Source of the DNA: Verrucomicrobiaceae bacterium
GTDB taxonomy: Bacteria; Verrucomicrobiota; Verrucomicrobiia; Verrucomicrobiales; Verrucomicrobiaceae
Reading direction: 5' to 3'
DNA: 64,000 nucleotides
NCBI GenBank assembly: GCA_027487315.1
Contig: JAIYDW010000114.1
Span: 1 to 64,000, forward strand
Part shown: piece by piece, positions 3,490-60,960 of the stretch
Layout: each line of letters opens with the position of its first letter
How positions within the stretch are numbered: the stretch's first letter is position 1
Notes under the pieces: model-generated
Told to the model about the DNA's origin: nothing
Databases searched by the model: none
The model's input: only the letters and a program-made list of their open reading frames with translations
Program-made: the position numbers and the translations under genes

Positions 3490-3813
3490 TGGGCGACCTT
3501 TCGTGGATTGGAGTTTTCGAATATAGGAAGTGTTGGAACCATAGGTTTCTGCGATTCAGGCTATGATAGCATCAGCATCTCCAGTGCCAAGAGTTTCTGG
3601 GAGGGCAATGCGTTCGAGGCTTTACGGGGGGCATCCCAGCTTGCTTGCAGGGCGTTTGCAGGACTGAGTCTTGGCATTTCGGGTGAGTGCTTATTGCCCT
3701 TGCGGATACGCTCCAGCCGCACTTTGGTGAATGGCGTGATTGTTGGATTTGCCTTCTGGGCCAAGATTGGCATAGGGAGTGATGCTCTGCCGAATTCAGC
3801 GCTTTCGAGGCAT
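3490..3813. other. gene-free stretch between DUF808 gene and first sulfatase
   Basis: About 324 bases. Three open frames cross it, all overlapping the sulfatase 3-prime end, and none has a recognisable domain or a convincing ribosome site. The minus frame reading down to 3561 has a fairly normal amino-acid composition (ANPTITPFTKVRLERIRKGN within it), so a decayed or novel short gene is possible. I see no terminator, repeat or RNA gene. The promoter of the DUF808 gene should lie near 3490-3560. Confidence 0.4.
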
Positions 3814-5811: not shown

Positions 5812-5831
5812 TTGAGGGAGCCAATTGTGAA

Positions 5832-7280: not shown

Positions 7281-7385
7281 GGTGCGTGGGTGAAACGCAG
7301 GTTTTGTTCAGACATCTCAGCAAAATGCGTGTTCATGGGCTTTCCATTGCCGAAACAGGTAAGGGTTGGGCACCGAGTGGAAAAC

Positions 7386-8972: not shown

Positions 8973-9038
8973 GGAAAAAGTTTTGATACGCAGATTCGAT
9001 AACCCAATGTCAGCGAATGCCTGGTCAGGGCGAGTCGA

Positions 9039-10190: not shown

Positions 10191-10263
10191 GCGCTGAATT
10201 ATTGGGTGAATTTAGTGGGAAACACAATGAAGGGTTCGAGGCTGGGTGGCATGCGGGGGTGCC

Positions 10264-11799: not shown

Positions 11800-11895
11800 G
11801 ACGTGACTTGAAACGGTCACTTTAGCCGCACATTCCAGCAAAGAGTGTGTCAAATCTAGCCGATGAGAGCCCGTTGGGTGGCATCCTGGTCGAGG

Positions 11896-43858: not shown

Positions 43859-45235
43859 CTACTTCTTCAATTGCTGCTGCAAAGGCGTCACGGCGGCTTT
43901 CAGGTAGGTGGCGTAGCGCTGGCGGAGTTCTTTGACCTTCTCGGGGTGCGCGACGGCGAGGTCTTGGGTTTCGCTGGGGTCATCGCGGAGGTTGAAGAGT
44001 TCGGTTTTTGGGGCTGTGCGGTTCTCCTTTTTCGACTTCTTGTCGCCCTGCTTTCGCTCGCCGGTTTCGAGATCGACGCTCGGCGTAACGCCGTCGTTGC
44101 CGTTGAGGATGAGTTTCCAGTCGCCCATGCGAATCGCTCCGTCGTTGGAGGTGATGGCATTGAGCAGGATGTCCTCGTGCGGTGAGGGTTTTCCCTCGGT
44201 GAGCACGGGCAGGATGTCGCGACCATCGAGCGGGAGTTTTTGCTCTAAGCTGCCGCCAGCGGTGTTCACGAAGGTGGGGAAGAGATCGACGATGTGCAGT
44301 GGCTCGGTGATGACGGTGCCCGGCGGGATGTGACCGGGCCATGCGGCGAGCGCGGGCGAGCGGATGCCGCCTTCGTAGAGCGAGGATTTGAAGGCCCGGT
44401 AAGGCAGATTACGACCTGGTGGCATGCCGCCGTTATCACTGGAGAAAACGATGAGCGTGTTCTCCCGGCGCCCCGTTTCTTCCAGAGCGGTGAAGATTGT
44501 GCCGCAACCGTCATCGACTGCGGTTAGCGCAGCGGCGAGTGTGGCGCGTTGCTCGTTCATCGCGGGTTGATAGGAGGCGACAGCTTCCTTGCTCGGGGCT
44601 TGCAGCGGCCCATGCACCCCGGTGAAGGGCACATAGAGGAAGAGCGGCTTGTCCTTTGGCTGTCGACGGATGATTGCAGCGGCTTCGTCGGCCTCCAATG
44701 TGGTCGCATAACCTTCCTCAACGACGAGTTCGCCATTCCGACGCCAGTCCAGCTCGCCGTTTTTGAAGTAGTTGTGATGCGTGAAGTAGTCTATACCTTC
44801 GAGATGGCCGAGCGAGTGATCAAAGCCGCGTGCCTTCGGCCAATACGCTTTGTCGAAGTGCCCGACGTGCCATTTGCCGCAGATCGCGGTGGTGTAGCCC
44901 GCGTCGTGCAGCGCATTGGCGATGGTGCGCTCCTCTAGCGGCATGCCGTATTTCGATTGCTGCCGGAGCACGTTCAACTGCATGCCCGAGCGAATCGGAT
45001 AGCGCCCGGTGAGAAACGCCACGCGCGTCGGTGTGCAAACCGGCATCACATAGAAGTGCTCCAGCTTCGCACCACTCGCCGCGAGTTTGTCGAGGTGCGG
45101 CGTCTTGATGTCACTGCCATGCCAGCCGACATCGGCATTGCCAAGATCATCGGCGAGGAGGAAGACGATGTCGGGAGGCGGCGCGGCGAAGAGCGTGGAG
45201 CCAAGAGTGAGGAGGGTGAAAAGGAGGCGTGTCAT
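43859..45235 (-). CDS. sulfatase (S1 family)
   Basis: A 458-residue secreted sulfatase. Signal peptide MTRLLFTLLTLGSTLFAA; metal ligands in FLLADDLGNADVGWHG (Asp29-Asp30); formylglycine motif CTPTRVAFLTGRYPIRSGMQ with Cys67-Arg71; second metal site VFSSDNGGMPPGRNL; KWHVGHFDKAYWPKARGFDH around residue 120. The layout resembles arylsulfatase B-type enzymes (N-acetylgalactosamine-4-sulfatases), with the GMQLNVLRQQSKYGMPLEER segment after the motif. It is preceded by a GH-like gene with a six-base gap, hence probably co-transcribed. Confidence 0.94.
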   Translation of the reverse strand: MTRLLFTLLTLGSTLFAAPPPDIVFLLADDLGNADVGWHGSDIKTPHLDKLAASGAKLEHFYVMPVCTPTRVAFLTGRYPIRSGMQLNVLRQQSKYGMPLEERTIANALHDAGYTTAICGKWHVGHFDKAYWPKARGFDHSLGHLEGIDYFTHHNYFKNGELDWRRNGELVVEEGYATTLEADEAAAIIRRQPKDKPLFLYVPFTGVHGPLQAPSKEAVASYQPAMNEQRATLAAALTAVDDGCGTIFTALEETGRRENTLIVFSSDNGGMPPGRNLPYRAFKSSLYEGGIRSPALAAWPGHIPPGTVITEPLHIVDLFPTFVNTAGGSLEQKLPLDGRDILPVLTEGKPSPHEDILLNAITSNDGAIRMGDWKLILNGNDGVTPSVDLETGERKQGDKKSKKENRTAPKTELFNLRDDPSETQDLAVAHPEKVKELRQRYATYLKAAVTPLQQQLKK

Positions 45236-45241
45236 GATGAC

Positions 45242-46687
45242 TTACTGCTTTGGTTCGCCACTTGACCGATGCAGCCCCTCGCACTTCGCGATGGCGGCTT
45301 TTAGGGGCGTGAGGATGGGCTGGATGGGGCGCTCGTGATCATCAATAAAACCTTCGCGGTAGAGCACGCCGCGTTGCTCGTAGCTGGCGATTTCTTTGGC
45401 GTTGCCTTTCTTCACGGCGTCGATGTAGGGCTTGCGGAGGCCGCGCATGTAGCCGCAGTGATGCCAGCCGATGAACCAGGGTTGGGCGAAGAGCTTCTTC
45501 AGCGTCTCGTCGTAGGTTTGGCCGAGCGATTGAAAAAACGCGGGGTTCTCGCCGCGCAGGGAGTTGTCGGGCCAGAAGGGCTTGCAGGTGGTGTCGCCAT
45601 TGATGATCGGCAGGCCGCTCTCGCGATGCACGGTGGTGAGCGTGGCCACCTGCTCATCGGCGGGGCCGTAGTATTGCACGCTGATGACATCCACAAAGCC
45701 GCGCATGGCCTTGAGACTGTTCGCGAGCTGCACGGGGAACTTGCGGTCGCGATTCATGTTCAGTTTATCGCCGAGGATGAGATGCGTGGTGTCGTGCTGT
45801 CGGATGCTGTGATGCCGCTCCGCATACCAGCGGCGAATGAGGATGGAAAGGAAGGCGCGACTGTCGGCGCCGGCTGCTTTGGCATCGCCCAGCTCACGCC
45901 ACTGCGTGCAGGCCGCGAGTTCCTCCCACGTCGCCGCTTTCACCGCATAAACCGCCGCCGCCTTGGCCGGATCGGCATGGCGCTTCTGCAAAAGCTCGAT
46001 CCACGCCTGCTTTCCCGCCGCTGTGGCAGGCAGCGACATCAGCGCATGAACCCACGGATGAAGCTGCCACTGCGCAGGCGAGAGTTTGGCAAATGCCGCA
46101 CTGCTCGCATCATCCTCCACCGTCCACGGCGGGCCGTCGGTGTAGGCGTAGCCGAGCAATCGCGAGTCCTGCGCACGCGGCTTCACGAGCTGATCCGCCA
46201 CCTCATCGAGCTGAACTCGAAATGCCTCGCTAAAAACATCCATGGGCCGTTTCGCAAAGCTGGCGACGAGTTCCGACCGCTTCATGTTCCAGCCCCACGA
46301 CACCGGAATCGCCAACTGGCAAACATAGTAGCCGCCAACGGCCTCCTGCAGGCTGCGCGAGAGCGGATTGTGAAACCCAAGCGTGTTGAAGCCCCAGTCC
46401 TTGAAGTTCGCCGCCACATTCGCCGACCACTTTTTCACCGCCGCCGATTCTTCATTAAAAGAGCCATCTTTGGCAAAGATCTCGCCGCCATAGGTCTCGC
46501 GCACAAACTCGGTATTGCGCGGACTCTGCCAATAAAGCGGCTCCACATGATTCGCGCCGATGGAGAGAAAGTTTGCGCCTGTGGGCGAGCGAAACCACCA
46601 CACGCCGTTTTCTTGCTTGACGGTGACTGCCTTGTCCTGAGCACTGACAGACAGGGTGAGGGCGATGAAGATGGCGAGAGCTTTCAT
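45242..46687 (-). CDS. secreted agarase-like glycoside hydrolase (GH50-like TIM barrel)
   Basis: A 481-residue exported protein (signal MKALAIFIALTLSVSAQ). It opens with NGVWWFRSPTGANFLSIGAN and FKDWGFNTLGFHNP, a pattern shared with GH50-type beta-agarases, and shows a (beta/alpha)8-like sequence with acidic strand ends in LGYAYTDGPPWTVEDD, VDVISVQYYGPADEQVATL, GLPIINGDTTCKPFW and GWHHCGYMRGLRKPY. The activity could be on agar or another galactan, but this is weak inference. The 712-codon plus-strand frame overlapping it is an antisense shadow. It directly precedes the 43859-45235 sulfatase. Confidence 0.72.
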   Translation of the reverse strand: MKALAIFIALTLSVSAQDKAVTVKQENGVWWFRSPTGANFLSIGANHVEPLYWQSPRNTEFVRETYGGEIFAKDGSFNEESAAVKKWSANVAANFKDWGFNTLGFHNPLSRSLQEAVGGYYVCQLAIPVSWGWNMKRSELVASFAKRPMDVFSEAFRVQLDEVADQLVKPRAQDSRLLGYAYTDGPPWTVEDDASSAAFAKLSPAQWQLHPWVHALMSLPATAAGKQAWIELLQKRHADPAKAAAVYAVKAATWEELAACTQWRELGDAKAAGADSRAFLSILIRRWYAERHHSIRQHDTTHLILGDKLNMNRDRKFPVQLANSLKAMRGFVDVISVQYYGPADEQVATLTTVHRESGLPIINGDTTCKPFWPDNSLRGENPAFFQSLGQTYDETLKKLFAQPWFIGWHHCGYMRGLRKPYIDAVKKGNAKEIASYEQRGVLYREGFIDDHERPIQPILTPLKAAIAKCEGLHRSSGEPKQ

Positions 46688-46705
46688 GGCGTGGTTGCCT
46701 TCGAT

Positions 46706-48136
46706 TTACTTGGCTTGCTGACGCCTTTTGGGATGCTCGGGTTTTGGTTCGGCGGCATTGGGCCAGCAGGGGCCATCGTCAAAGAAGTGCGCACCAGTGC
46801 CGGGGCCGGTGAAGTCGCCGAGGTCGGCGCGGGATTCGTCGGCGAGTTGGGTGAGGAGCTTCACGACGGCAGGCTGTTTTGCGGCGAGGTTGGTGGATTC
46901 AGTCGGGTCGGTGGAGAGTTGGTAGAGTTGGGTCTTGGGCAAGAATTCGATGTGGCTGGTCACAAAATTTGGCATGTAGGGCATCTCGCCGCCGGCGGGG
47001 CGGGCGAAGACGAGTTTGAAGTCCTTGTGCCGCAAGGCGGTGAGGCGTGCGCCGTTGTGGTAGAGGAAGGTTTCTCGCGGGCTGGGAGCGTTGGGTTGGG
47101 TGAGGAAATCGGTGAGGTCGAAGCCGTCGAGCTTAGCGCCCGGGAGTTTCGTTCCGGAAAGGGCGGCGAAGGTGGGCAGCAGGTCGATAGTGGCGGCGAT
47201 GCCGTCGCTGGTTTCACCGGCGCGGACTTTGCCGGGCCAGCGCACGATGCCGGGGACACGCCAACCGCCCTCCCAAGTGGTCATTTTGGCTCCGCGAAAG
47301 GGTGCCGGGCTGCCGCCGTGGTCACCGATTTGTTTGTCGGTCCACGGGCCGTTGTCGCTGGTGAAGACGACGAGCGTGTTGTCATCGAGGCCGAGTTTTT
47401 TCAGCTTGGCGAAGATATCGCCGATGGCGGAGTCGAGTTCTTCGATGGCGTCGCCATACAAGCCGCGCTGTGACTTGCCGCGAAACGTCTCCGACACGCC
47501 GAGCGGCACATGCGGCATATGGTAGGCGAGGTAAAGGAAGAAGGGGTCGTCTTTGCTGCTGCGGATGAACTCCAGCGCCTCGCGGGTGCAATCGGCGGTG
47601 AGCGTATTCATATCGGCCTGGGTCTTGATGGTGCGCACGACCTCGCCGGGTTTGCGCATGAAGGGCACGACGGCCCCGGGTTGGATGTCGCGGGTGGCTC
47701 CATTGAAAGCGGGAGTGAAGTAGCTGTGCTGAAAGCCTTGTGCGATGGGGTCGCAGCCCGCGCTCATGCCGAGATGCCATTTGCCGACGATGCCGGTGCG
47801 ATAGCCAGCATCGCGTAGAATTTCGGCGATGAAGATTTCCTTTGTGTGTGGCAGCGTGTGGCCATTTTTGCCGTTTTGCACCTCGCCGATGCGAAGGGGG
47901 TAACAGCCGGTCATGAGCGCCGCGCGACTCGGACCGCAAATCGGCTGCGCATAGAAGCTGGTGAGCTTCAAGCCCTCCGAAGCCATCTTGTCGAGATGTG
48001 GCGTGCGGATGTCTTTCGCGCCGAAGCTGCCGAGATCGCCGTAGCCGAGGTCATCGGCGAGGATGATGAGGATGTTTGGCTGCGCTGCCTGGAGCGTGCA
48101 GCACAGGGCGAACAGGATGAAAAGGACGCGAGTCAT
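46706..48136 (-). CDS. sulfatase (S1 family)
   Basis: 476 residues from the ATG at 48136; a TTG at 48148 opens the same frame but would add only four residues before the signal peptide MTRVLFILFALCCTLQAAQ. Metal ligands in IILADDLGYGDLGSFG (Asp28-Asp29); formylglycine motif CGPSRAALMTGCYPLRIGEV with Cys67-Arg71; second metal region VFTSDNGPWTDKQIGDHG. C-terminal KPEHPKRRQQAK is basic. It resembles arylsulfatase A-type sulfatases. It ends 18 bases before the GH50-like gene starts and begins 18 bases after the next sulfatase ends, so the run looks like one transcript. Confidence 0.94.
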   Translation of the reverse strand: MTRVLFILFALCCTLQAAQPNILIILADDLGYGDLGSFGAKDIRTPHLDKMASEGLKLTSFYAQPICGPSRAALMTGCYPLRIGEVQNGKNGHTLPHTKEIFIAEILRDAGYRTGIVGKWHLGMSAGCDPIAQGFQHSYFTPAFNGATRDIQPGAVVPFMRKPGEVVRTIKTQADMNTLTADCTREALEFIRSSKDDPFFLYLAYHMPHVPLGVSETFRGKSQRGLYGDAIEELDSAIGDIFAKLKKLGLDDNTLVVFTSDNGPWTDKQIGDHGGSPAPFRGAKMTTWEGGWRVPGIVRWPGKVRAGETSDGIAATIDLLPTFAALSGTKLPGAKLDGFDLTDFLTQPNAPSPRETFLYHNGARLTALRHKDFKLVFARPAGGEMPYMPNFVTSHIEFLPKTQLYQLSTDPTESTNLAAKQPAVVKLLTQLADESRADLGDFTGPGTGAHFFDDGPCWPNAAEPKPEHPKRRQQAK

Positions 48137-48154
48137 GAGATGAACCAATCTGGG

Positions 48155-49585
48155 CTATCTGGCACCTGCGGACATCCACCAGCGCTTCTCATTGAAGTCG
48201 GGATTTGGGGTGGGGAGCTTGGCTTTGGTGCGTTTTAGCCAGGCGTTGAGGGCGTTGTTGAGGTGGGTGGTTTTTTTTGGGCGGTCGGTGGCGAGGTTGT
48301 GGGTTTCGTTGGGGTCTTCGCGGAGGTTGAAGACTTCGGTGCGGGGGCCGACGACGAGTTTGCCGTAGGGTTTGTCGTCGGGGGTGAAGCCGGTGGTGTC
48401 GAGATAGTCGCCGAACCAGTGGATGAGCTTCCAATCGCCCTCGCGGATGACGGCGCAGGGCGTGCGGCCGTAGTTTGTGGTGTAGGTGGGCATGTGCCAG
48501 AACAAGGCGGGGCGCTGGAGCGGGCCTGTTTGCGTGAGCAGAGGGAGGAGGCTTTCGCCGTCGAGTGGATGCGCTGTGGTCGGTGGCGCGTCGGCGAGCG
48601 CGGCAAATGTTGGATAAAAATCCACGGCATGCACGGGAGTATCGCATTCGCTGCCAGCTTTCACCTTTGCTGGCCAGCGCATGATGAGAGGGACGCGGAT
48701 GCCGCCTTCGTAGGGGGAGCCTTTGCCTTCGCGAAGCGGGGCGTTGTTTGTCACGCGGGAGAGGCCGCCGTTGTCGCTGGTGAAGATGACGAGGGTGTTG
48801 TCGCTGAGTTTGAGTTCATCGAGTTTAGCGAGAAGGCGGCCCACTTCATTATCGAGATGCTCCAGCATGGCGAGGTAGTTCGCGATGGGGCGTTCGGTGG
48901 AGCTGCCTTCATCGTTTGCCGACCGTTTGTAGCCTCGGGCGACATGTTTCGCAATCAATGCCTCCGGCGCTTCCAGCTTCGTGTGCGGGCTGAAATGGGC
49001 AGCGAAGGCAAACCAGGGCTTGCTGCGATTCGATTCGATGAAGCCAATGATGTCATCGGTGATGGCGGTGACGGTTTTGTCCTCGTGATGTTCGTTGCCA
49101 TTCGCCGGACCGGCGAAATCGAAGCCGTAGGAGTTGAAATAGCCTTCGCGCTTCCGCAGGGCTGCGACGGCGTAGTTGTGCGCGATGTGCCACTTGCCAC
49201 TGATGACAGTGGTGTAGCCCGCTTGGCGCAAGGTGGTCGCCAGCGTGGCTGTTTCCGGTCCCATCGCATCTTTCGCCTCGGCGGAACGCATGGGTGCAAA
49301 CGAGGGCTCCTTTTCGTTCAGCACCTTGAATACACCCGTGCGAGCGCCGTATTGTCCGGAGAGAAAGGCGGCACGCGTGGGCGAGCATTGCGCATCGGCA
49401 TACGCTTGGGTGAAGCGCATGCCTTGGGCTGCGAGGCGGTCGAGATGCGGCGTTTGCAGGTCTTTGTTGCCGTAGCAGCTCAACGCATTCCAGCCCATGT
49501 CATCTGCAAGGATGTGGAGGATGTTGGGCTGCGCGGCGAAGAGCGAAGGGCAGAGGGTGAGGAGGATGAGAAGGCGGCGGATCAT
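48155..49585 (-). CDS. sulfatase (S1 family)
   Basis: A 476-residue secreted sulfatase. Signal peptide MIRRLLILLTLCPSLFAAQ; metal ligands in LADDMGWNALSCYGN (Asp28-Asp29); formylglycine motif CSPTRAAFLSGQYGARTGVF with Cys67-Arg71; second metal region VIFTSDNGGLSRVTN. Family-typical GKWHIAHNYAVAALRKREGY follows near residue 130. C-terminal NPDFNEKRWWMSAGAR is shared in spirit with the sulfatase at 54863 (NPDFDPNAKPKAK). It lies downstream of the PcRGLX-like lyase gene by 72 bases. Substrate not deducible. Confidence 0.94.
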   Translation of the reverse strand: MIRRLLILLTLCPSLFAAQPNILHILADDMGWNALSCYGNKDLQTPHLDRLAAQGMRFTQAYADAQCSPTRAAFLSGQYGARTGVFKVLNEKEPSFAPMRSAEAKDAMGPETATLATTLRQAGYTTVISGKWHIAHNYAVAALRKREGYFNSYGFDFAGPANGNEHHEDKTVTAITDDIIGFIESNRSKPWFAFAAHFSPHTKLEAPEALIAKHVARGYKRSANDEGSSTERPIANYLAMLEHLDNEVGRLLAKLDELKLSDNTLVIFTSDNGGLSRVTNNAPLREGKGSPYEGGIRVPLIMRWPAKVKAGSECDTPVHAVDFYPTFAALADAPPTTAHPLDGESLLPLLTQTGPLQRPALFWHMPTYTTNYGRTPCAVIREGDWKLIHWFGDYLDTTGFTPDDKPYGKLVVGPRTEVFNLREDPNETHNLATDRPKKTTHLNNALNAWLKRTKAKLPTPNPDFNEKRWWMSAGAR

Positions 49586-49657
49586 CGGAAGAGGTAAATA
49601 GCTAACAGAAAATGGGGGTGGCAGATATCAGAATCCATTTTGTGCCCCCATTTGCTG

Positions 49658-50689
49658 TCAGTTGTTTTGAACGCTGACAACCACAAGCGGACGGATCATT
49701 GCCAGCGGACTCGTGACTGCGGTGACGGGTATGGGCTGGCCGACGACGTGGAAATAGACAGTGAGGTCGCGGCGTGTGGCGGCGATGTGGATGCGACCCT
49801 CGGCGGTGAGTTTCACTTCGGTATCGTGGTCAGCCTTCATGACACCAAACGCCGCGACTCGCTCCGCATCCGCGAGGTGACCACAGCCGTCGAAGGTTGG
49901 AGCGGTGGCGAAAACTGTGGCGGGAGCAGTGAGGATGTCCCAGGTGCTGCTGCGATGTTGGATCATCACAGTCTGACTTAGCTGGCTCATGTTGCCATAC
50001 AGCCAGCTTCCAGCCCCGAAGTCCCAGAGCAACGGAAGCTTGGTGAGGTTGAAATGCGCATCGACAGCGAGTTCGCGTTCGTCATCGGCATGTTGGGTGA
50101 TCTTCACCCAGGATTTGGTGTTTACGTATTCGAGCTGCACGGGGCCGAACTTCAGCGTGACGTTGAAAGGGCCGCGCTTCACGATCTCGACATTGCCGGG
50201 TTGGAGAGTCGTGCAGATCCCATCGGGGCCGATGAACTCGTTTTCACCGAACGCGATGGAGGTGAGGAGAGGCTTTCCATCGCGACGAATGCGGTGACAA
50301 ATGGCTGCGGAGGCGACGACGATTTCGTCGTCTGTCTCGGTGACGGATAAACCTGCGCGGAGTGTCTGCTTGGGGTCTTTGCCGACCTCCACACGGTAGG
50401 TCAGCGTTTCCATTGGCCCGGGACTCGGCGAGAAATCGACATCGAGTCCACGCACGCTGCCATCGGGCCACTTTGACATTGCGGTGAACTGCGCGGGCAC
50501 TTCTTGGCCATTAGCGGCGAGCAACCGGACCTTGTCCGCATCTGCGATCATGCCTTCGGCACTCTCCAGCGAGGCCGTCACCGGATACCCAAAGCGCCGC
50601 AAACCTGCCGTCTCGCTCACGGTGAATGTGATCGTTTGCGCCATGGTGGACGTGGCGAAGGCCCAGAGGAAAAGCAGGCGGTGGATCAT
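49658..50689 (-). CDS. PcRGLX/YetA-like secreted lyase-type protein
   Basis: 343 residues from the ATG at 50689, which opens a signal peptide (MIHRLLFLWAFATSTMAQ); the frame runs to 50743. Residues 22-90, RRFGYPVTASLESAEGMIAD, KVRLLAANGQEVPAQF and SKWPDGSVRGLDVDFSPSPG, match the N-terminal domain of PcRGLX (exo-rhamnogalacturonan lyase) and YetA-like proteins. The rest has beta-sandwich-like segments. The length is shorter than full PcRGLX enzymes, so it may be only the N-terminal part, acting alone or with a partner. The nearby PL6-like gene supports a lyase cluster. Confidence 0.72.
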   Translation of the reverse strand: MIHRLLFLWAFATSTMAQTITFTVSETAGLRRFGYPVTASLESAEGMIADADKVRLLAANGQEVPAQFTAMSKWPDGSVRGLDVDFSPSPGPMETLTYRVEVGKDPKQTLRAGLSVTETDDEIVVASAAICHRIRRDGKPLLTSIAFGENEFIGPDGICTTLQPGNVEIVKRGPFNVTLKFGPVQLEYVNTKSWVKITQHADDERELAVDAHFNLTKLPLLWDFGAGSWLYGNMSQLSQTVMIQHRSSTWDILTAPATVFATAPTFDGCGHLADAERVAAFGVMKADHDTEVKLTAEGRIHIAATRRDLTVYFHVVGQPIPVTAVTSPLAMIRPLVVVSVQNN

Positions 50690-50765
50690 CGGAAGAAGAG
50701 AGGCGCTAACAGAAAAAGGGGGGAGCATATGAGAGACATCCATTTGCTGTCAGCTACGTTTTTGT

Positions 50766-52085
50766 TCATGGCTCAAAAGTGTTCCCGGACTCGTGCAGCT
50801 CTCTGGGCAGTTCGCCACTTGCATCATTGGCGATAAAATCAAAGGCGCTGCCATTACCCATGCCTGCGAACCCATTTTCGCGCACGATGATGTTCTTCGG
50901 CAACAGCGGATACTCTTTTCGGGCGTAGATGCCGACGGCGATGCGCTTGTCGCAGTGCTCGAAGCGATTGCGGATGATGAGAATGTCGCGCGTGCGACCA
51001 TAGCCGCTGAGTTGGTCGGTTTCGCCGTAGGTTTCGAGATCGGCGGCCATGAGGGAGATGGGCCAGGCGTAGTAATCCTTGGGCTTTTTCAGATCGCGGA
51101 AGGTGTTGCCGATTAAAACATGGCCGTCACCTTGCAAGCGCACGCCGCCGGTGTTTTCGCGGCCCTGTCCGTCGAAGACATTGTCCTGCACAAGCACCCG
51201 ACGAGCGGTGCGCAGGCAAAGCACGCCCTGGCTGGCGATGAATCGATTCCCGCGCACGACGATGTCGGAGGCCTTGAGCGTGATGAGTTCGTTCTCGCCA
51301 TCGCAGCGCTCAAAGGTGTTTCCCTGGATGAGCGAGCCGGTGGCGGCCGCACGCTCGCCGCTCCAGCCAATTTGCAGGATCTCGTAGCCGTTTTGATCGT
51401 CGATCTTGGGGCGGTCGACGAAGTGGTTGTTGAGCACGTGCAGTTGTTGCAGCCCGTCTTTCGGCAATTCCGCGGCGCCAAGCATTTGTCCGATGTGCTT
51501 TAAGCCGCTGAAGGTTGAGTTGGATACGGTGTTGCCACGACCACGCATACTCATGAGCCAGAGGTGCAGCTTGGGCCAGTCCGCAGGGTTGGTGGAACCA
51601 CACTTCTCAAAGCGAAGACGGTTGAAGACGCAGTGATTGGCTGGTTTTTCCGCGCCATTGCCCACCCGGAAGAGCACCTCGTTGTTCTTCGTCACCGTCA
51701 CGCCCTGAAAAGCCAAGTCGTGTACGATGAGATGCTGGCCATGAAACGTCACCGCTGATTCGCCAGTGAAAACCACGCCTCCCGGGTTCTCCGGACGAAT
51801 GACAATCGGCTTCTCCTCCGTGCCATGACCTTCAAACGTGAATCGCGCCTCTTTCCAAGCCGTGCCCGCGAGCACGAGCTGATCGCCTGGCTTGAGCTTG
51901 CCGGACAAAGCTCGCACTTCGACGGCAGCGCGGGCCACATGCTCCTGACCGTTGCCAAAGTCGCCGGATTCGAGCTTAGCGAGTCGCGGATCAACGGGGC
52001 GCTCAAGATCCAGTCGGAGTGTCTTTGGCAGTTCGGCTGACAGGACACCTATGCTCCAAAGGGAAAGGCAAAGCGCGGCTCTCAT
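50766..52085 (-). CDS. PL6-like polysaccharide lyase (alginate lyase / chondroitinase B type)
   Basis: A 439-residue secreted right-handed beta-helix protein. Signal peptide ALCLSLWSIGVLSAE. Family-typical segments: KPIVIRPENPGGVVFTGESA, HNHFVD-like loops (LNNHFVDRPKIDDQNGYEIL), then RCDGENELITLKASDIVVRG and NRFIASQGVLCLRTARRVLV with QDNVFDGQG, which form the calcium/substrate groove in PL6 enzymes. Lys and Arg in those loops would serve as base and acid. The substrate could be alginate, dermatan/chondroitin or another uronan. The start ATG overlaps the stop of the upstream DUF1080-like gene (52082-52085). Confidence 0.85.
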   Translation of the reverse strand: MRAALCLSLWSIGVLSAELPKTLRLDLERPVDPRLAKLESGDFGNGQEHVARAAVEVRALSGKLKPGDQLVLAGTAWKEARFTFEGHGTEEKPIVIRPENPGGVVFTGESAVTFHGQHLIVHDLAFQGVTVTKNNEVLFRVGNGAEKPANHCVFNRLRFEKCGSTNPADWPKLHLWLMSMRGRGNTVSNSTFSGLKHIGQMLGAAELPKDGLQQLHVLNNHFVDRPKIDDQNGYEILQIGWSGERAAATGSLIQGNTFERCDGENELITLKASDIVVRGNRFIASQGVLCLRTARRVLVQDNVFDGQGRENTGGVRLQGDGHVLIGNTFRDLKKPKDYYAWPISLMAADLETYGETDQLSGYGRTRDILIIRNRFEHCDKRIAVGIYARKEYPLLPKNIIVRENGFAGMGNGSAFDFIANDASGELPRELHESGNTFEP

Positions 52086-52831
52086 GGCTTCACTTCAGGG
52101 GTGAGTCTCGTTTTGTTCTTTGCCCAGTCCGCATTCGGCAGCGCCTCCCACACACGCAGATTGCGAAAGCTGGCTTCCGTGCCCGCGCCGAGCATGAGGC
52201 TGTGCTTGGCTGTGCTGATGAGCGGGTTGCTCAGCGTGATGCTTTGACCATTCAGCGTGCCAACGACCTCATCGCCCTTGATTTCCAGCACGACGGTGTG
52301 CCACTCGTTGAGCTTGATCGGCTTTAACAGCTTCACTGTGGGGCCCTTCTCCCGCTGTTTGGTGGCCGGATTGATCTTCTCCGTGTCATAAGGTGTCAAA
52401 AAGAGCCCGCCTTGCCCAAGGCTGAGTGAGATGACGTAATCTTTGGCGTCCGTGGCCTTCAGAAACAGCGAGCGATACTTCCGCCCCTCGTCCGGCACGT
52501 CGTTGAGACGCACCTCACACTGGATGATCACATCTTGAAACGTCATGCCCAACGAAGCCGTGGCTGGATGATTCGCGCCGGGCGTCTCGATACCGCGAAA
52601 CGCCCCGTTCACGATCTCCCAACGTCCGCCTTTGCCGCCTGTGACGCTGCTGTTGTAACGCCAGCCTTTGAATCCACTTGCAAAGCCCACCGGTTTGCCC
52701 GTGAACGGCGCTGGTGCTTCGGTAAAATCCTCGCTAGCGAGCAGGTGGCCCCGCGTCGTGCTCAGCGTGGCCGGATCGCTCGAGAGAGCGAGGCGGGTGA
52801 GCATGAAGAAGAGGAGAAAGGAGCGTTTCAT
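52082..52831 (-). CDS. DUF1080-like secreted protein (concanavalin-like fold)
   Basis: 249 residues from the ATG at 52831, which gives a signal peptide (MKRSFLLFFMLTRLALSSD); the frame extends upstream through unlikely sequence to 52921. The DUF1080 / 3-keto-disaccharide hydrolase-type pattern is seen: LASEDFTEAPAPFTGKPVGF, GRWEIVNGAFRGIETPGANH, TFQDVIIQCEVRLND, SLFLKATDAKDYVISLS, EWHTVVLEIKGDEVVGTLNG and HSLMLGAGTEASFRNLRVWE. The family is known for 3-keto-glycoside hydrolysis in some members, but many remain untested. It is coupled by overlap to the PL6-like gene, so probably serves the same glycan. Confidence 0.8.
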   Translation of the reverse strand: MKRSFLLFFMLTRLALSSDPATLSTTRGHLLASEDFTEAPAPFTGKPVGFASGFKGWRYNSSVTGGKGGRWEIVNGAFRGIETPGANHPATASLGMTFQDVIIQCEVRLNDVPDEGRKYRSLFLKATDAKDYVISLSLGQGGLFLTPYDTEKINPATKQREKGPTVKLLKPIKLNEWHTVVLEIKGDEVVGTLNGQSITLSNPLISTAKHSLMLGAGTEASFRNLRVWEALPNADWAKNKTRLTPEVKP

Positions 52832-53040
52832 GGGATTCAGATCAGTGGTAAGCCAATCAGAGTGCGGATTTATCCATGGAAGCAAGGACATGCATCGCCG
52901 TCTCAGCCCTAAATTTGCCATGACAGCACCGCGTTGGAGGGTTCTGCATCACCCAGAACTGAGCCGAGACCCCTGAGTGCGCTAGAGCAGTTGAGAGCAT
53001 TTTAACAAAAGAGGAATGGCCGAGTTGCGGAAGCGATGGC

Positions 53041-54798
53041 TCATTTGGATCGTGATGTGGAGATGAGATTCAGGGTGCGAACCTCGGCACCACCCGCAGG
53101 CAAATGCACACGCACGTGGATGACGCGGCCAGTGGTCGGGATTTGGAGCGTGTGCGTTTGCCAATCCGACGTGGCTTGCAGCGGAAAGGTGAGGCGATTG
53201 GCGGGGAAAAAGTCTTTGTCGTCGTTCAACCGCCAGGCGATGGCGCCCTGGCCGGTGGCGGCGGTTTTGAGGGTGATTTGGGCGGTGACGGGACCGGCGA
53301 GCTTGAGCTTGGATTTGGTTATGAAGGTGGGTTTGTTGGCTTGGTCCGGGGTGAGGATGAGGAGACCGTCTTTGGCGGTGAGTTTGCCGTTGCGGGCTTC
53401 CCAGCCGTTGGTTTCGGAGGCGGTGGTGGTGGGTGCTTCGGCGCGTGGGGCGATGGTTTTGCCTTCGAGGTAGTGATCGAAGTAATCGTTCCAAGTGGGG
53501 GCCATGGGGCCGAGGGCCATGCCGGGTGGGTTGAGTGTGTCGGCCCAGGTTTTGAACTTGGAGCGGAGGCGGGTGGCGATCTCGGGGTGCTGCGCGGCGA
53601 GGTTGTGCTTTTCTTCGCGGTCGGTGCTGAGGTCGTAGAGGTATTCGCGCTCGCCACCGCGGAGGAGTTTCCACTTGCCCTCGCGAACGGCGCTCTGGGC
53701 CATCCAGCGCCAGAAGAGGGCGTCGTGTGGAGGCTCTTTGTTTTCGCCGGTGAGGTGGGGGAGGAGGTTAATGCCGTCGAAAGCACTTTGATCGCCAATC
53801 GAAGCTACGGCAGAGGCGGTCGCGGCGAAATCGAGCGCGGTGACGGGATGCTCGTAGATTTGACCGCTGGGGATCGTGCCGGGCCAGGCGATGAGGAAGG
53901 GGGTGGACATGCCGCCTTCGGAGAGCATGCCTTTTTCGCCATTGAGCGGGGTGTTGAGGCTGCCGTCCCAGCCGCCGGGATCGCCATTGAGAGGAGAGTC
54001 CACCTTATGGATCTTTAGTGGGGCGCCGTTGTCGCCGATGAGGAAAATGAGCGTCTTTTCGGTGAGGTTGTGCTTCTTCAAGGTGCTGGTGATGAGGCCG
54101 ACGCCGTCATCAATGGCGCTGAGCATGGCGAGTGCGGCGCGGCGGCGCTCGGGCATTTCGCCGGGAAAGCGGTCCATGTAGCGCTTTGGCGCATCCAGCG
54201 GCGTATGCGGGGCGCGGTAGGCGACGTAGAGGAAGAAGGGCTGGTCCCGATAGCGTTCGATGATGGATGCGGCGGCTTTGGAACAGCCTTCGAGGTGATA
54301 CTCGGTTGGTGGCAGATCACTCATCGGGCGGTCTTGGCCATCGAGCGTGATGTTGGCTGAAAATGGACGCTGTGCGTTTTGGGAGAAGACGTGCTTGAAG
54401 CCGTGCTGTGTGATCGCCTCGGTCGGCCCGAGGTGCCATTTGCCGAATTGCGCCGTGGCGTAGCCGGCGTTTTGCAGGCGTGTGGCGATGGTGGTTTCCT
54501 TGTTGAAGCCGTCGAGCGCGGAGCCGTTGTTATCGAGATCGAAGCGACCCTGGAAGCGTCCGGTCATGACGCCGCCACGTGAGGGCACGCACTGCGGGGC
54601 GGTGCTGTAGCCGTGGGTCGCTACGACGCCGCTGCGGGCGAGGGCATCGAGATGGGGTGTTTTGATATCGTTTACCACACCATGGATGCCGAGGTCGGCG
54701 TGGCCATGGTCGTCAGTGTAGATGAGGATGATGTTGGGCCTTGCCGCGAAGAGCGCGGGGCAGAGTGCGAAGAGAATGAGGTGGAGAACAGGACGCAT
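53041..54798 (-). CDS. sulfatase with C-terminal beta-sandwich domain
   Basis: 585 residues from the ATG at 54798, which gives a signal peptide (MRPVLHLILFALCPALFAA); the open frame continues upstream to 55371 inside another gene, without sense. Metal ligands in LIYTDDHGHADLGIHG (Asp29-Asp30); formylglycine motif CVPSRGGVMTGRFQGRFDLD with Cys70-Arg74; second metal site IFLIGDNGAPLKI. The last 120 residues (GLLILTPDQANKPTFITKSK, ending VHLPAGGAEVRTLNLIST) form an extra domain like that of the sulfatase at 3814-5811, perhaps glycan-binding. The gene is followed by a gap to the DUF1080 gene at 52831. Confidence 0.94.
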   Translation of the reverse strand: MRPVLHLILFALCPALFAARPNIILIYTDDHGHADLGIHGVVNDIKTPHLDALARSGVVATHGYSTAPQCVPSRGGVMTGRFQGRFDLDNNGSALDGFNKETTIATRLQNAGYATAQFGKWHLGPTEAITQHGFKHVFSQNAQRPFSANITLDGQDRPMSDLPPTEYHLEGCSKAAASIIERYRDQPFFLYVAYRAPHTPLDAPKRYMDRFPGEMPERRRAALAMLSAIDDGVGLITSTLKKHNLTEKTLIFLIGDNGAPLKIHKVDSPLNGDPGGWDGSLNTPLNGEKGMLSEGGMSTPFLIAWPGTIPSGQIYEHPVTALDFAATASAVASIGDQSAFDGINLLPHLTGENKEPPHDALFWRWMAQSAVREGKWKLLRGGEREYLYDLSTDREEKHNLAAQHPEIATRLRSKFKTWADTLNPPGMALGPMAPTWNDYFDHYLEGKTIAPRAEAPTTTASETNGWEARNGKLTAKDGLLILTPDQANKPTFITKSKLKLAGPVTAQITLKTAATGQGAIAWRLNDDKDFFPANRLTFPLQATSDWQTHTLQIPTTGRVIHVRVHLPAGGAEVRTLNLISTSRSK

Positions 54799-54862
54799 GC
54801 TGCGGCGTGAAACGTTGCCGTGGGCGGAACATGTCAGCAAATACTGTGTCTGATTTGGCAGG

Positions 54863-56275
54863 CTACTTTTTCTTCCCTTTCTTCGGCGCTTTGGCTTTGG
54901 GTTTAGCGTTCGGATCGAAGTCGGGATTGGGTTTTGGCATGAGGGCACCGACTTGAGTGCGCCAGGCAACGAGTTTGGCGTGCAGTTCTTTGGTTTTGTC
55001 CGGTTGCTGCGGGGCGAGGTTGGTTTTTTCGCTGAGGTCTTGGGAGAGATTGTAGAGTTCGAGGGCGCCATCTTCATACCACTCGATGAGCTTCCAATCG
55101 CCATCGCGGATGACGCCGTTGGGCGAGCCGCCTTGGTTGGCGTAGTGGGGGTAGTGCCAGAAGAGGGGTTGGCTGCGGGAGCGGGTTTCGCCTTTGAGCA
55201 AGGGGGTGAAGCTTTCACCGTCGAGGTGTTGATCGGGTTTTGGAGGCAGGCCAGCGAGGTCGAGCAGGGTGGGATAAAAGTCGGTGCTGATGACGGGTGA
55301 GTTGCAGGTGGTATTGGGAGGGGTGGTGCCCGGGGCGACGACGATGAGGGGTTCGCGCACGCCGCCTTCATAGGGCCAGCCTTTGCCGGCGCGCAGGGGG
55401 AGATTGGAAGTGGGGGAGCCTTCGGCGGTGGAGAGGCCGCCGTTGTCGGACATGAAGACGACGATGGTTTTGCCAGTCAGGCCGTTCTTTTCCAGGGAAG
55501 CGATGATCCTGCCGATACCGGAGTCGAGTTGTTCGATCATGGCGGCGTAGGCGGCTTGATTCTGGACGAGGCGGACTTGGTTTTTGCCTTCCTGGCCCCA
55601 CTGGTCGGCTGGGGCGTCCTTTGCTTTTGCTTCCCATTTGGCGACAAGGTCGGCACGGGCTCCGATGGGCACGTGGGGGGCGTTGAAGGGGAGGTAGGCG
55701 AAGAAGGGGCGATCTTTGTTTTGTTCGATGAAGGCTATGGCGTCGTCACAAATACGGTCGGTCTTTTTGGGGTCATCGGCGCGTTTTTCGGTGCTCGTTT
55801 TGGGTCCGGTGGCAGCGCTGGCATCGGTAGTGAAACCTTGATCCTTGGGTAGGAAGCCCTCGTTGCCTAAGTGCCACTTGCCTGACATGAAGGTGGCATA
55901 TCCGGCCTCTTTGAAGGCCTCGGCGATGGTGATTTCTGAGAGGGCCAATTCGTTGGCGTTGGCTGCGGGCAGCAGCTTTCCGGCACGGCCACCGGGGATG
56001 AAGTTGGTGATGCCGAAGCGTGGTGGATACTTGCCGGTCATGATGCTGCCGCGAGTGGGGGAGCAGACGCAGCAGGCCGCGTAGCCACTGGTGAATTTCA
56101 TGCCGCGTTTGGCGAGGGAGTCGATGTTGGGGGTATCGTAGAAGGTGTCGGGATTGAACGCGCGAATGTCTCGTTGGCCGAGGTCATCGGCGAGGAGGAA
56201 GAGGATGTTGGGTTTATCCGCTGCAAGGAGCGAAGAGCAGAGAGTGAAGAGGACGAGAGAGGTGAGGCGTTTCAT
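54863..56275 (-). CDS. sulfatase (S1 family)
   Basis: 470 residues from the ATG at 56275 (signal MKRLTSLVLFTLCSSLLAAD); the frame continues to 56410 through the palindromic repeat region and was rejected. Metal ligands in LLADDLGQRDIRAFNPD (Asp30-Asp31); formylglycine motif CSPTRGSIMTGKYPPRFG with Cys71-Arg75; second metal site VVFMSDNGGLSTAEG. The C-terminus ends in a Lys-rich tail (PNAKPKAKAPKKGKKK). Arylsulfatase A-like overall. The sulfatase downstream starts 64 bases after its stop. It diverges from the ATPase gene over 269 bases that hold the repeats. Confidence 0.94.
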   Translation of the reverse strand: MKRLTSLVLFTLCSSLLAADKPNILFLLADDLGQRDIRAFNPDTFYDTPNIDSLAKRGMKFTSGYAACCVCSPTRGSIMTGKYPPRFGITNFIPGGRAGKLLPAANANELALSEITIAEAFKEAGYATFMSGKWHLGNEGFLPKDQGFTTDASAATGPKTSTEKRADDPKKTDRICDDAIAFIEQNKDRPFFAYLPFNAPHVPIGARADLVAKWEAKAKDAPADQWGQEGKNQVRLVQNQAAYAAMIEQLDSGIGRIIASLEKNGLTGKTIVVFMSDNGGLSTAEGSPTSNLPLRAGKGWPYEGGVREPLIVVAPGTTPPNTTCNSPVISTDFYPTLLDLAGLPPKPDQHLDGESFTPLLKGETRSRSQPLFWHYPHYANQGGSPNGVIRDGDWKLIEWYEDGALELYNLSQDLSEKTNLAPQQPDKTKELHAKLVAWRTQVGALMPKPNPDFDPNAKPKAKAPKKGKKK

Positions 56276-56409
56276 GGAGCGCCGTCTCCAACGAAGGACT
56301 TTGATGGAGTGTTGCAGAGAGCTTGGTTTTCGGGCAGGAAGCGACTTGATGAGATGGGCGGAGTCCCAGAAGGCGGCGATTTGGTGCTCTCTGAGCGCGC
56401 GAATATTCA

Positions 56410-56532
56410 AGCACTAAATCAACGAAATGTCGAATTGGTGCTGTGTTTTTTGAGGGAGAAGGGAGCACGAAATTGACGAAATGTCGAATTGGTGCTGTAA
56501 TGGGGGTGGTTTTATTGAGCACGAAATCGACA
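56410..56532. repeat. palindromic repeat array with exact 54-base period upstream of the ATPase gene
   Basis: Two near-identical 33-base units (56410-56442 and 56464-56496) and a partial third (from 56518) start exactly 54 bases apart, each separated by 21 bases of unlike sequence. Each full unit starts AGCAC and ends GTGCT (inverted arms), with inner arms around an AAT core, so it is an imperfect palindrome. The shared core is ACGAAATGTCGAATTGGTGC. They lie 13-135 bases before the ATPase start and 135-257 bases before the sulfatase start. They may be binding sites for a dimeric regulator, or a REP-like repeat. In one minus-strand frame they translate as an 18-residue repeat, probably meaningless. 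Confidence 0.85.
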
Positions 56533-56544
56533 TCTGATCTTACC

Positions 56545-57990
56545 ATGCCTGCGCAATTTCCCTTTCATGGACGCCGCTATTATGCGGATCAGTTTGAGCG
56601 TTTGTTTCGGAAGCCCAAGGCATCCCTGGTGGTTGTGCAGGGGAGGAGGCGTATTGGAAAGAGTGCCTTTGTCACGCACTGTGGGCAGACGTATGCGCAG
56701 CACTTTCTGAAGTTTGAAGGACTCGGTCCGCGCGAGGGCGGTGGTGTGGTCGAGCAGTTGGCGGCTTTTGCTGAGCAGCTTGCCGCCCAGACAAAACTGC
56801 CGCGCATGACACTGGAAACTTGGCCCCAGGCTTTTCAGCTTCTTGCCAGCATGCTGCCTGCCCAAGGGAAAGTCGTGCTGTTGTTCGATGAGATTTCATG
56901 GATGGCCTCAGGAGACAAGGACTTTGCCGGTCATCTCAAAATCGCCTGGGATAATCTCTTCAGCACAAGACAGAATCTCGTCGTGGTATTGTGTGGATCT
57001 GTGTCGTCTTGGATTGAGGAGAATTTGCTCAAGAATACAGGTTTCGTGGGACGCACCACGTGGGTCTTTACTCTGCCGCCGATGCCTTTGCCGGAGTGCG
57101 TGCCGTTTTGGCGAGGGAAGGCAGCGCGCATTTCGACGCTGGAGAAAATCAAGACACTGGCTGTGACGGGTGGCGTGCCGCGTTATCTGGAAGAGATCGA
57201 TCCCGCGCAGACTGCAGAGCAAAACATCCATCGGCTATGCTTTGATGCAGGCGGGCTATTGTTTCGTGAACTTGAGGATTTGTTTAGCAGCGTCTTCAAT
57301 CGGCGGGCGGAGCGCTATCGAGAGATCTGCAAGGCGCTTTGCGGACCTGCAAAGACCCTGACGGAGCTTTCGAATGACCTCAAGATTGGCCGTGGGGGCA
57401 TTCTTTCCGAAGCGCTGGCGGAGTTGGACAGCGCGGGCTTCATCACTGCTGATTTGCCATTTTCACCACTCGGCGGTGTGGAGAAGCGCATTGCCAAATA
57501 CCGGCTGAGCGACAACTACACGCGCTTTTACCTGCGCTATGTGGCACCGGAGAAAAGACGCATCGCTGGCGGACTGTATCGTCAGCGGGCGCTGGAGACA
57601 CTGCCACAATGGGACGCGATCATGGGGCTTCAGTTTGAGAACCTCGTGCTCACGAATCGGGATCCGTTGCTGCGGCACATCGGGCTTGCCAACACGCCCA
57701 TTCTCAATGCAGGCCCGTATTTTCAGGGGAAAACGTTACGTGCCGAGAGTTGTCAGATCGACATGCTCCTGCGCACGAAAAAATCTCTCTATGTCGTGGA
57801 GATCAAATTGCGGGATCGAATCTTGCCCACTTGCATGGCCGATGTGCAGGAGAAGATTCGCCGTCTCAAGTTACCCAAAGGCACACCCTGCCGCAGCGTG
57901 CTTGTCTATCACGGTGCGCTAGACGCCAGCATCCCGGACGAAGATTATTTTGATTATCTCGTGCCGTTTGAGCGGTTGTTTGAGGCTTGA
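56545..57990 (+). CDS. AAA ATPase with DUF234-type C-terminal nuclease-like domain
   Basis: 481 residues from the ATG at 56545; an upstream extension to 56443 would include the repeats. A P-loop (VQGRRRIGKSAF, residues 31-42) and Walker B (KVVLLFDEISWM, Asp115-Glu116) define the archaeal-type ATPase (STAND-like) family. A winged-helix region follows (TLTELSNDLKIGRGGILSEA). The C-terminal DUF234-type part has QIDMLLRTKKSLYVVEIKLR, which fits a PD-(D/E)xK nuclease core (Asp, then Glu-x-Lys). Such ATPases are widespread, often accessory or mobile, and their role is unknown; a DNA-defence or transposition link is speculation. It is alone in a plus-strand unit with the Whirly-like gene after it. 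Confidence 0.88.
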   Translation: MPAQFPFHGRRYYADQFERLFRKPKASLVVVQGRRRIGKSAFVTHCGQTYAQHFLKFEGLGPREGGGVVEQLAAFAEQLAAQTKLPRMTLETWPQAFQLLASMLPAQGKVVLLFDEISWMASGDKDFAGHLKIAWDNLFSTRQNLVVVLCGSVSSWIEENLLKNTGFVGRTTWVFTLPPMPLPECVPFWRGKAARISTLEKIKTLAVTGGVPRYLEEIDPAQTAEQNIHRLCFDAGGLLFRELEDLFSSVFNRRAERYREICKALCGPAKTLTELSNDLKIGRGGILSEALAELDSAGFITADLPFSPLGGVEKRIAKYRLSDNYTRFYLRYVAPEKRRIAGGLYRQRALETLPQWDAIMGLQFENLVLTNRDPLLRHIGLANTPILNAGPYFQGKTLRAESCQIDMLLRTKKSLYVVEIKLRDRILPTCMADVQEKIRRLKLPKGTPCRSVLVYHGALDASIPDEDYFDYLVPFERLFEA

Positions 57991-58045
57991 GAGTTGTGTT
58001 GGGATGGGTCTTTTTGCTTTACAGCGGGAGGAGGCTGATTTTAGC

Positions 58046-58513
58046 GTGGGTGTGCGTATGAATGAGAAAGCCGCCTCCGCCGCCAAGCCCAATGCTGAGT
58101 ATGCGATCTACAAGCCAAACGGTCGCGGAAACGGAGGGGTGATTCGATTTGAGTTCAACCGCACCAAGGGAGCGGTTTTTGTGGATGCGGCGACGCAGAG
58201 CGGGGAGAAGCAGTTCGATTGGGAGTCAAAGATCACGATGAAATGGGGACTCAATGATCTGGGGGTTGTGCTGGCCACGCTGCAGGGGCGTCAGGATCAA
58301 GCGAAGCTGTTTCACCAATCGGACAAGGCGAACAGTGCCTTCGAGTTGAGCTTTCGGGACGACCCGCAGAAGGCGCCTTTTTTCATGAGCATGTCCCGGC
58401 AGGAAGCGGCTTCGAAGAGTGTGAAGAAGGTGACGATTCCGGTGATGTATGCGGAGGCGGCGATTCTGGAGACGGCGCTGCGGGCTGCGATCACGCGGTT
58501 GATCGGGTGGTGA
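58046..58513 (+). CDS. Whirly-like putative single-strand DNA-binding protein
   Basis: 155 residues from the GTG at 58046, which sits 11 bases after a strong GGGAGGAGG ribosome site (58026-58034); the ATG at 58058 is the other candidate and the frame extends to 57950. The pattern AEYAIYKPNGRGNGGVIRFE then WGLNDLGVVLATLQGRQDQA and KLFHQSDKANSAFELSF resembles bacterial proteins with the Whirly/MRP fold (two beta-sheets around helices) that bind single-stranded nucleic acid. That assignment is by eye. Basic and acidic residues alternate in strands, with KKVTIPVMYAEAAILETALR at the C-terminal helix. It could act in repair or transcription. It lies 55 bases after the ATPase gene, same strand, perhaps unrelated. 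Confidence 0.6.
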   Translation: MGVRMNEKAASAAKPNAEYAIYKPNGRGNGGVIRFEFNRTKGAVFVDAATQSGEKQFDWESKITMKWGLNDLGVVLATLQGRQDQAKLFHQSDKANSAFELSFRDDPQKAPFFMSMSRQEAASKSVKKVTIPVMYAEAAILETALRAAITRLIGW

Positions 58514-60805: not shown

Positions 60806-60822
60806 GGGGAGAATAGAGAATA

Positions 60823-60913
60823 GAGAGTGGAGAGTGGAGAGTGGAGAGTGGAGAGTGGAGAGTGGAGAGTGGAGAGTGGAGAGTGGAGAGTGGAGAGTGG
60901 AGAGTGGAGAGTG
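60823..60913. repeat. 13 perfect tandem copies of a 7-base unit between divergent genes
   Basis: GAGAGTG is repeated 13 times without a break (60823-60913, 91 bases). The array starts 18 bases upstream of the P450 start and ends 48 bases before the DUF2071 start. It is an unusually long, uninterrupted short tandem repeat. Slippage at such an array would change promoter spacing or the 5-prime untranslated length by 7 bases. Frames that cross it (SPLSTLHSPLSTLHS on the minus strand) are artefacts. Confidence 0.95.
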
Positions 60914-60960
60914 GGATGCGGGGCGTCTGTTAGGTAGGTTGGAAGCGTTGAGGATAAAGG

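Follow-up and report, generated by a model that had tools for sequence, protein, structure and literature searches.

The ATPase gene and its upstream array

The window, i.e. the whole stretch of 64,000 nt analysed here, harbours on its plus strand a gene (56545–57990) encoding a protein of 481 aa in which an AAA+/STAND ATPase, a winged helix and a PD-(D/E)XK nuclease are combined, corresponding to the PADLOC candidate PDC-S27. The PDC-S27 profile matches ORF residues 43–458 with an E-value of 4.4e-76, while the Pfam scores narrowly miss their curated cut-offs (ATPase_2, 32.0 against 33.2 bits; DUF234, 19.1 against 22.5 bits) and the protein is therefore referred to as DUF234-type, not as a curated Pfam member. 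An AlphaFold2 model made with 16 sequences (mean pLDDT 88.8) predicts an AAA+/STAND core, a winged helix at about residues 255–330 (57307–57534, plus strand) with a putative recognition helix at residues 285–296, which together with Arg283 is encoded at 57391–57432 (plus strand), and a PD-(D/E)XK nuclease-like domain, placed by conserved residues and by the model at 57610–57924 (plus strand). A Foldseek search with the model returned two archaeal AAA+ ATPases first, followed by DNA-bound Orc1/Cdc6 and NLR/STAND proteins, and a sequence-profile search against solved structures gave no useful match. The Walker residues K39, D115 and E116 and the nuclease residues E365, D406 and E419 are invariant in all 120 homologues compared, K421 being found in 118 of the 120, and since these residues are kept the window protein probably retains both its ATPase and its nuclease activity.

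Divergently from this gene a sulfatase gene is located on the minus strand (54863–56275, ATG at 56275), a neighbour regarded as lying outside the system; the neighbouring genes vary among relatives. Between the two start codons lies an array (56377–56532) with its 3' edge 12 bp upstream of the ATPase ATG at 56545 and its other edge about 100 bp from the sulfatase start. It consists of six half-sites of alternating orientation, TGTCGAATTGGTGCT-type and the inverse AGCACGAAATYGACA, the separation of which alternates between variable spacers of 21 nt and short linkers. In the first unit, half-site 1, CGATTTGGTGCT (56377–56388, plus), is followed by spacer 1 (56389–56409) and the inverted half-site 2, AGCACTAAATCAACG (56410–56424, minus); the second holds half-site 3, TGTCGAATTGGTGCT (56428–56442, plus), spacer 2 (56443–56463) and the inverted half-site 4, AGCACGAAATTGACG (56464–56478, minus); and the third holds half-site 5, again TGTCGAATTGGTGCT (56482–56496, plus), spacer 3 (56497–56517) and the inverted half-site 6, AGCACGAAATCGACA (56518–56532, minus). 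The array has a clean start and a clean end.

The motif TTGGTGCT starts at 56381, 56435 and 56489 and the motif AGCACKAAAT at 56410, 56464 and 56518, both at a period of exactly 54 bp and with no further copy in the window, which bears out the 54-base period that the preliminary description had read from the second set of positions. That description had counted two palindromes and a partial third, which covers half-sites 2 to 6, and had overlooked half-site 1, whose TTGGTGCT stands in register with the other two, so that three complete units are present. The two 33-base imperfect palindromes themselves were found as described, with 11 of 16 arm positions paired (22 of 33 letters) and with a predicted folding much stronger than that of shuffled sequences (z -4.6 and -4.9); folding of the whole array is also predicted to be strong. 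The window reaches a four-half-site score of 61, whereas upstream regions of this kind did not exceed 48 in 368 dinucleotide shuffles. No further copy of the array was found in the 5.87-Mb assembly.

Two other interpretations of the repeats were considered and rejected. A coding repeat of 18 residues on the minus strand (ORF 56214–56546, 54 being 3 x 18) was without family match and is disfavoured by the periods of 53, 55 and 56 bp in relatives, which are not multiples of three. A CRISPR array was rejected as there are only 2–3 units, the 21-nt spacers are kept between the genomes G000 and G002 and no cas gene was seen in the neighbourhood read.

Elsewhere in the window a tandem heptamer, GGAGAGT, is repeated 15.3 times at 60808–60914, near the start of a minus-strand gene that by eye looks cytochrome-P450-like, and a large set of related sulfatase genes, with sulfatase motifs recurring as direct repeats, occupies 4475–14000 and 43900–56275.

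Linkage of the array to the ATPase gene

In relatives that probably belong to Verrucomicrobiaceae as well the same array, with two or three units at the 54-bp period, is situated directly before the homologous ATPase gene while the neighbours change. The preliminary description had placed the palindromes in the divergent promoter of the sulfatase and the ATPase gene; the position between the two start codons holds, but the proximity to the sulfatase is a coincidence, as in relatives the array tracks the ATPase gene. The search of the genome and its relatives proposed in that description, where randomly spaced copies would have pointed to a dispersed repeat, thus returned copies that keep the 54-bp period beside the ATPase gene.

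A scan of 84,980 species with the pattern CGATTTNGTGC-N(13-33)-GCACNAAATCG revealed 40 loci. In 24 of these the gap is 23 or 24, and 20 of the 24 abut an ATPase gene of this family, the remainder being one locus that abuts an internally deleted remnant of it (L034), one at a contig end (L043) and two without such a gene (L037 and L059). None of the 16 loci with other gaps abuts such a gene. The carriers, mostly metagenome-assembled, belong to Verrucomicrobia, Planctomycetes, Lentisphaerae, Parachlamydiaceae, Archangium and one gammaproteobacterium; a pattern scan of viral contigs was negative. The distribution is patchy (21 of 68 genomes of the family and 31 of 388 of the phylum). Between G000 and G002 the spacers of the array are conserved as well.

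Some single cases were noted in the course of this work. In the remnant (L034:1704, also L074, genome G012) an array unit precedes an ATPase gene whose start is joined to about residue 295. In Brevifollis gellanilyticus (L024; L064:1985-2089 and 3548-3706) one ATPase gene is flanked by arrays of the window type, with three units on the 5' side and two on the 3' side. Three genomes of one family of the phylum (G488, G492 and G495) hold up to 56 first-look candidates of the ATPase family each. Palindromes are also seen upstream of remote homologues in Bacteroidota (Emticicia plasmid, L381), in a gut phage scaffold (L383) and in an archaeon (Halomarina plasmid, L384). In four of six plasmid and phage records compared, a palindrome upstream of the gene scores higher than the best shuffled sequence.

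Conserved geometry and private palindrome sequences

For a wider comparison 214 upstream regions were collected, and the analysis was carried out on those belonging to 198 genes of 36% identity or more, a sample that is biased toward the phylum of the window and often comes from draft or metagenome-assembled genomes. A four-site array whose score exceeds the 99th percentile of both the shuffled and the intragenic controls precedes 129 of the 198 genes, and in 112 of these 129 arrays the period is 53–56 bp, the null being flat from 36 to 79; a few "arrays" show odd periods of 60–74 bp. A palindrome above the null is present upstream of 172 of the 198 genes and inside the gene in only one of 198, and most genes without the complete array retain a single palindrome. 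With registers that were called automatically, a few of them wrongly, core-to-core distances were 27–29 bp in 113 of 120 cases and, across the other gap, 25–28 bp in 105 of 120.

The palindrome sequences themselves vary widely among genes, as in TTTCCCCTAA, TGTCACATTATT, GGCGTGAAA and GGTTCACCTAA. Unsupervised alignment gave the half-site consensus NNGGCACGAAATYG, in which the C at position 4 (counted from 0) is nearly invariant. Paralogues within one genome share the 9-nt core in just 2 of 96 pairs, while orthologues above 70% identity share it in 26 of 35.

Coevolution of the palindrome with the predicted recognition helix

The relation between protein and site was analysed in 120 protein-site pairs, where each of 156 windows along the protein was correlated with the similarity of the palindromes, as a partial correlation in which the remainder of the protein was controlled for. 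The highest-ranking of the 156 covers residues 283–297, the predicted recognition helix. A second peak, at residues 70–105 of the ATPase domain (about 56752–56859), may reflect another contact with the DNA or a surface used in oligomerisation.

Mutual information, calculated on 50 representatives below 65% identity, gave two leading residue-base pairs, residue 283 with half-site position 6, at z 11.8, and residue 286 with position 2, at z 7.5. Arg or Lys at 283 goes with C at position 6 in 83 of 85 cases overall and in 31 of 32 cluster representatives, Asn283 with T in four of five, Ala or Pro283 mostly with A and Ser or Met283 with G; His286 accompanies G in 23 of 23 cases and Ile287 accompanies T at position 3 in eight of nine. 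In a tree from which the winged helix had been left out there are eight class changes at residue 283, seven of them on a branch where position 6 changes too (hypergeometric P about 1e-10), and shared ancestry is therefore an unlikely cause of the match. When 1363 such shared-branch tests of residue classes were compared R283 ranked first (1e-6), the next one being at 1e-3; for residue 286 (P 0.009) and residue 287 (P 0.0015) the tendency is similar but weaker.

These comparisons indicate that the product of the ATPase gene is the probable reader of the palindrome, by way of its winged helix. Recognition sites of the ATPase had been among the possibilities named in the preliminary description, and it is this one that is supported by the linkage throughout the family and by the coevolution, both seen at the level of sequence.

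Promoter position and proposed function

Of 97 cases in the clade below 50% identity, 49 have a σ70-like promoter with a score of at least 9.5 between the array and the ATG, compared to 3 of 97 shuffled sequences, and where the register could be called the edge of the last half-site is mostly located 8–10 bp upstream of the -35 box. As the promoter is downstream of the array in this clade the array is left outside the mRNA, which favours recognition of the DNA over a role as RNA. When a clear σ70 promoter was looked for in the clade of the window none was found; here the array reaches up to the start codon.

We propose that the array is a cis-acting DNA platform to which the protein encoded directly downstream would bind, with the recognition helix of the winged helix reading each half-site. 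With half-sites alternating every 26–28 bp several protomers could assemble on the 54-bp repeat, and we infer that such assembly would be ATP-dependent. Binding would most likely govern the expression of the gene itself, since the array overlaps or adjoins the promoter of the gene, and for the window type repression is our guess. A palindrome of its own could also insulate each paralogue from the others. That the array is a self-read binding platform of the adjacent nuclease-ATPase, most likely autoregulatory, is on sequence comparison the reading that we hold to be probable, with a good deal of room for doubt. The regulatory array suggested in the preliminary description is compatible with this, as the array adjoins the promoter or the start codon of the ATPase gene. 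Counting against a platform that serves as operator only are the second, 3' array of Brevifollis (L024) and the palindromes at both ends of the gene in a distant clade. The second correlation peak in the ATPase domain and the weaker shared-branch signals of residues 286 and 287 also weigh against the proposal, as does, for autoregulation, the result of the promoter search in the clade of the window.

Palindromes at both ends of the gene in a distant clade

The distant clade, at 27–31% identity and likewise matching PDC-S27, has the gene's own palindrome at both ends in 10 of 16 cases, and here the palindromes may serve as termini or attachment sites for a small cassette that is moved or excised by its own nuclease-ATPase, comparable to RAYT/REP systems and gene cassettes; for the clade of the window the 5' array would then be the end that was retained. 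In six genomes (G031, G435, G438, G443, G456 and G458) TTCTTCCTAT-N19-ATAGGAAGAA bounds the gene on either side, at a distance of exactly 1452 bp, and does not recur elsewhere; the genome of the window itself has a degenerate copy at C68:2088-2126. One orthologous locus of this clade (comprising L326, L331, L333, L339, L340 and L345) is filled, with palindrome, gene and palindrome, in G456, G458 and G438, holds a solo palindrome between orthologous flanks in G436 and a solo palindrome of different sequence in G030, and has none in G439 and G457. This filled, solo and empty pattern is what insertion at the palindromes, or excision between them, would leave; yet recombination between the two palindromes yields the same solo site without transposition. 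It was an apparent excess of inverted repeats downstream of the gene in the distant clade that had pointed to the arrangement at both ends.

For the clade of the window, array and gene are absent together, in one compact piece, at the sites of G458 and G453 that are orthologous, and the patchy distribution (21 of 68 and 31 of 388 genomes, as above) may be counted toward mobility. In G453, however, the missing stretch corresponds to about 54855–58057 and includes a second sulfatase, so that it does not delimit the array and the gene as a unit, and no target duplication is evident at the empty sites of this clade. Apart from Brevifollis L024 the 3' end of the gene is without a palindrome in the window clade: a search of the 3' side for the gene's own palindrome was positive in 11 of 187 cases, ten of them from the distant clade, against one in the shuffled control. 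Sampled paralogues within a genome are at most 65% identical, so that no recent copies were seen, and the palindromes overlap or adjoin promoters. Taking both sides together we regard a cassette with the palindromes as its ends as rather unlikely, yet as a rival to be taken seriously.

The two functions may also coincide. It is a tentative suggestion that these genes are a widespread family of horizontally moving single-gene cassettes of an AAA+ nuclease, in which a private palindrome read by the winged helix is self-operator and cassette boundary at once and in which the code from residue to base can be deciphered. If so, they would represent an autonomous element or an immune device that needs neither a transposase nor a guide RNA nor a partner protein.

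Other explanations for the array

An action of the array as RNA, in transcribed hairpins that would serve as guide, as antitoxin RNA or as leader (CRISPR-like, TIGR-like or type III antitoxin-like), would fit the strong predicted folding of the 33-mers and of the whole array as well as the fixed length of the variable 21-nt spacers, but one palindrome of the window has mismatched arms (AATTGG against ATTTCG), the base changes track the DNA-reading helix, the spacers are kept between G000 and G002 and there is no cas-type partner in the neighbourhood. With the promoter located downstream of the array in the clade where promoters are recognisable, we consider such a role very improbable. Slightly more improbable still are operators of an unrelated regulator for the divergent sulfatase: the array is indeed placed in the intergenic region common to both genes, but in relatives it accompanies the ATPase gene while the divergent neighbour changes, its sequence tracks the ATPase's own helix, and the linkage data refute this as the main reading. 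An ordinary dispersed, REP-like repeat, which the preliminary description had listed and for which palindromic units with unlike spacers might speak, or a chance tandem duplication can practically be dismissed, as the array has a single location in the genome and its place, period and linkage are conserved across several phyla.

Comparison with known systems

PDC-S27 has been reported with 3503 archaeal and 4562 bacterial instances and is treated as a candidate, validation being pending for most PDCs (PMC12988326). In the literature searched on PDC-S27 and on ATPase-DUF234 proteins, which extended to few subscription titles and thus gives weak evidence of absence, no palindromes, arrays or self-recognition were found, and with the same limited weight no described counterpart of a self-addressed nuclease-ATPase array was found.

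A similar arrangement is that of RAYT genes, each tied to its own palindrome, with coevolution of palindrome and protein and with flanking REPs (PMC2817692). The likeness, i.e. a private palindrome, coevolution and, in the distant clade, a gene flanked by two palindromes, is one of arrangement only: RAYTs are HUH (tyrosine) transposases whereas the present protein is an AAA+/winged helix/PD-(D/E)XK protein without the HUH hallmark, and REPs reach high copy numbers whereas here only the array, or in the distant clade a pair of copies for each element, is present.

Archaeal Orc1/Cdc6 proteins, among the structural neighbours of the model, share the AAA+ ATPase and the winged helix, and their binding sites are repeated boxes close to the genes that encode them. 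They differ in having no nuclease domain and in their function at origins, and the similarity, at about 12–16% identity, is at the level of the fold only. STAND/NLR-type regulators such as MalT, IniR and plant NLR proteins share the STAND-like ATPase fold; the ATPase domain of IniR has been compared with SSO1545 (PMC5760070) and the NB-ARC domain of Rx1 binds DNA (PMC4599002). To our knowledge neither a PD-(D/E)XK domain nor family-wide private palindromes are present in MalT, IniR or plant NLR proteins.

A private palindromic operator before the gene of its reader is familiar from controllers of restriction-modification systems and from toxin-antitoxin genes. There a small separate regulator binds, while here the effector-like ATPase-nuclease carries the reading domain itself, and in place of such operators an array with a 54-bp period is found. 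A self-regulated private operator is thus of a known kind, and it is the self-addressed nuclease cassette that would be new, a reading that we put forward with reserve.

ATPase-DUF234 genes of the archaeal type, of which there are thousands, are listed among the candidates for defence, and comparison alone would here supply them with a putative DNA ligand. Given the half-site consensus, the fixed geometry and a residue, 283, that predicts a base, binding, autoregulation and activation of the nuclease become testable with short synthetic DNA. With palindromes at both ends of the gene, the distant clade also prompts one to ask whether these genes form a self-maintaining element, and the more than 100 natural pairs of protein and site would provide a large collection of winged helices that read DNA orthogonally to one another.
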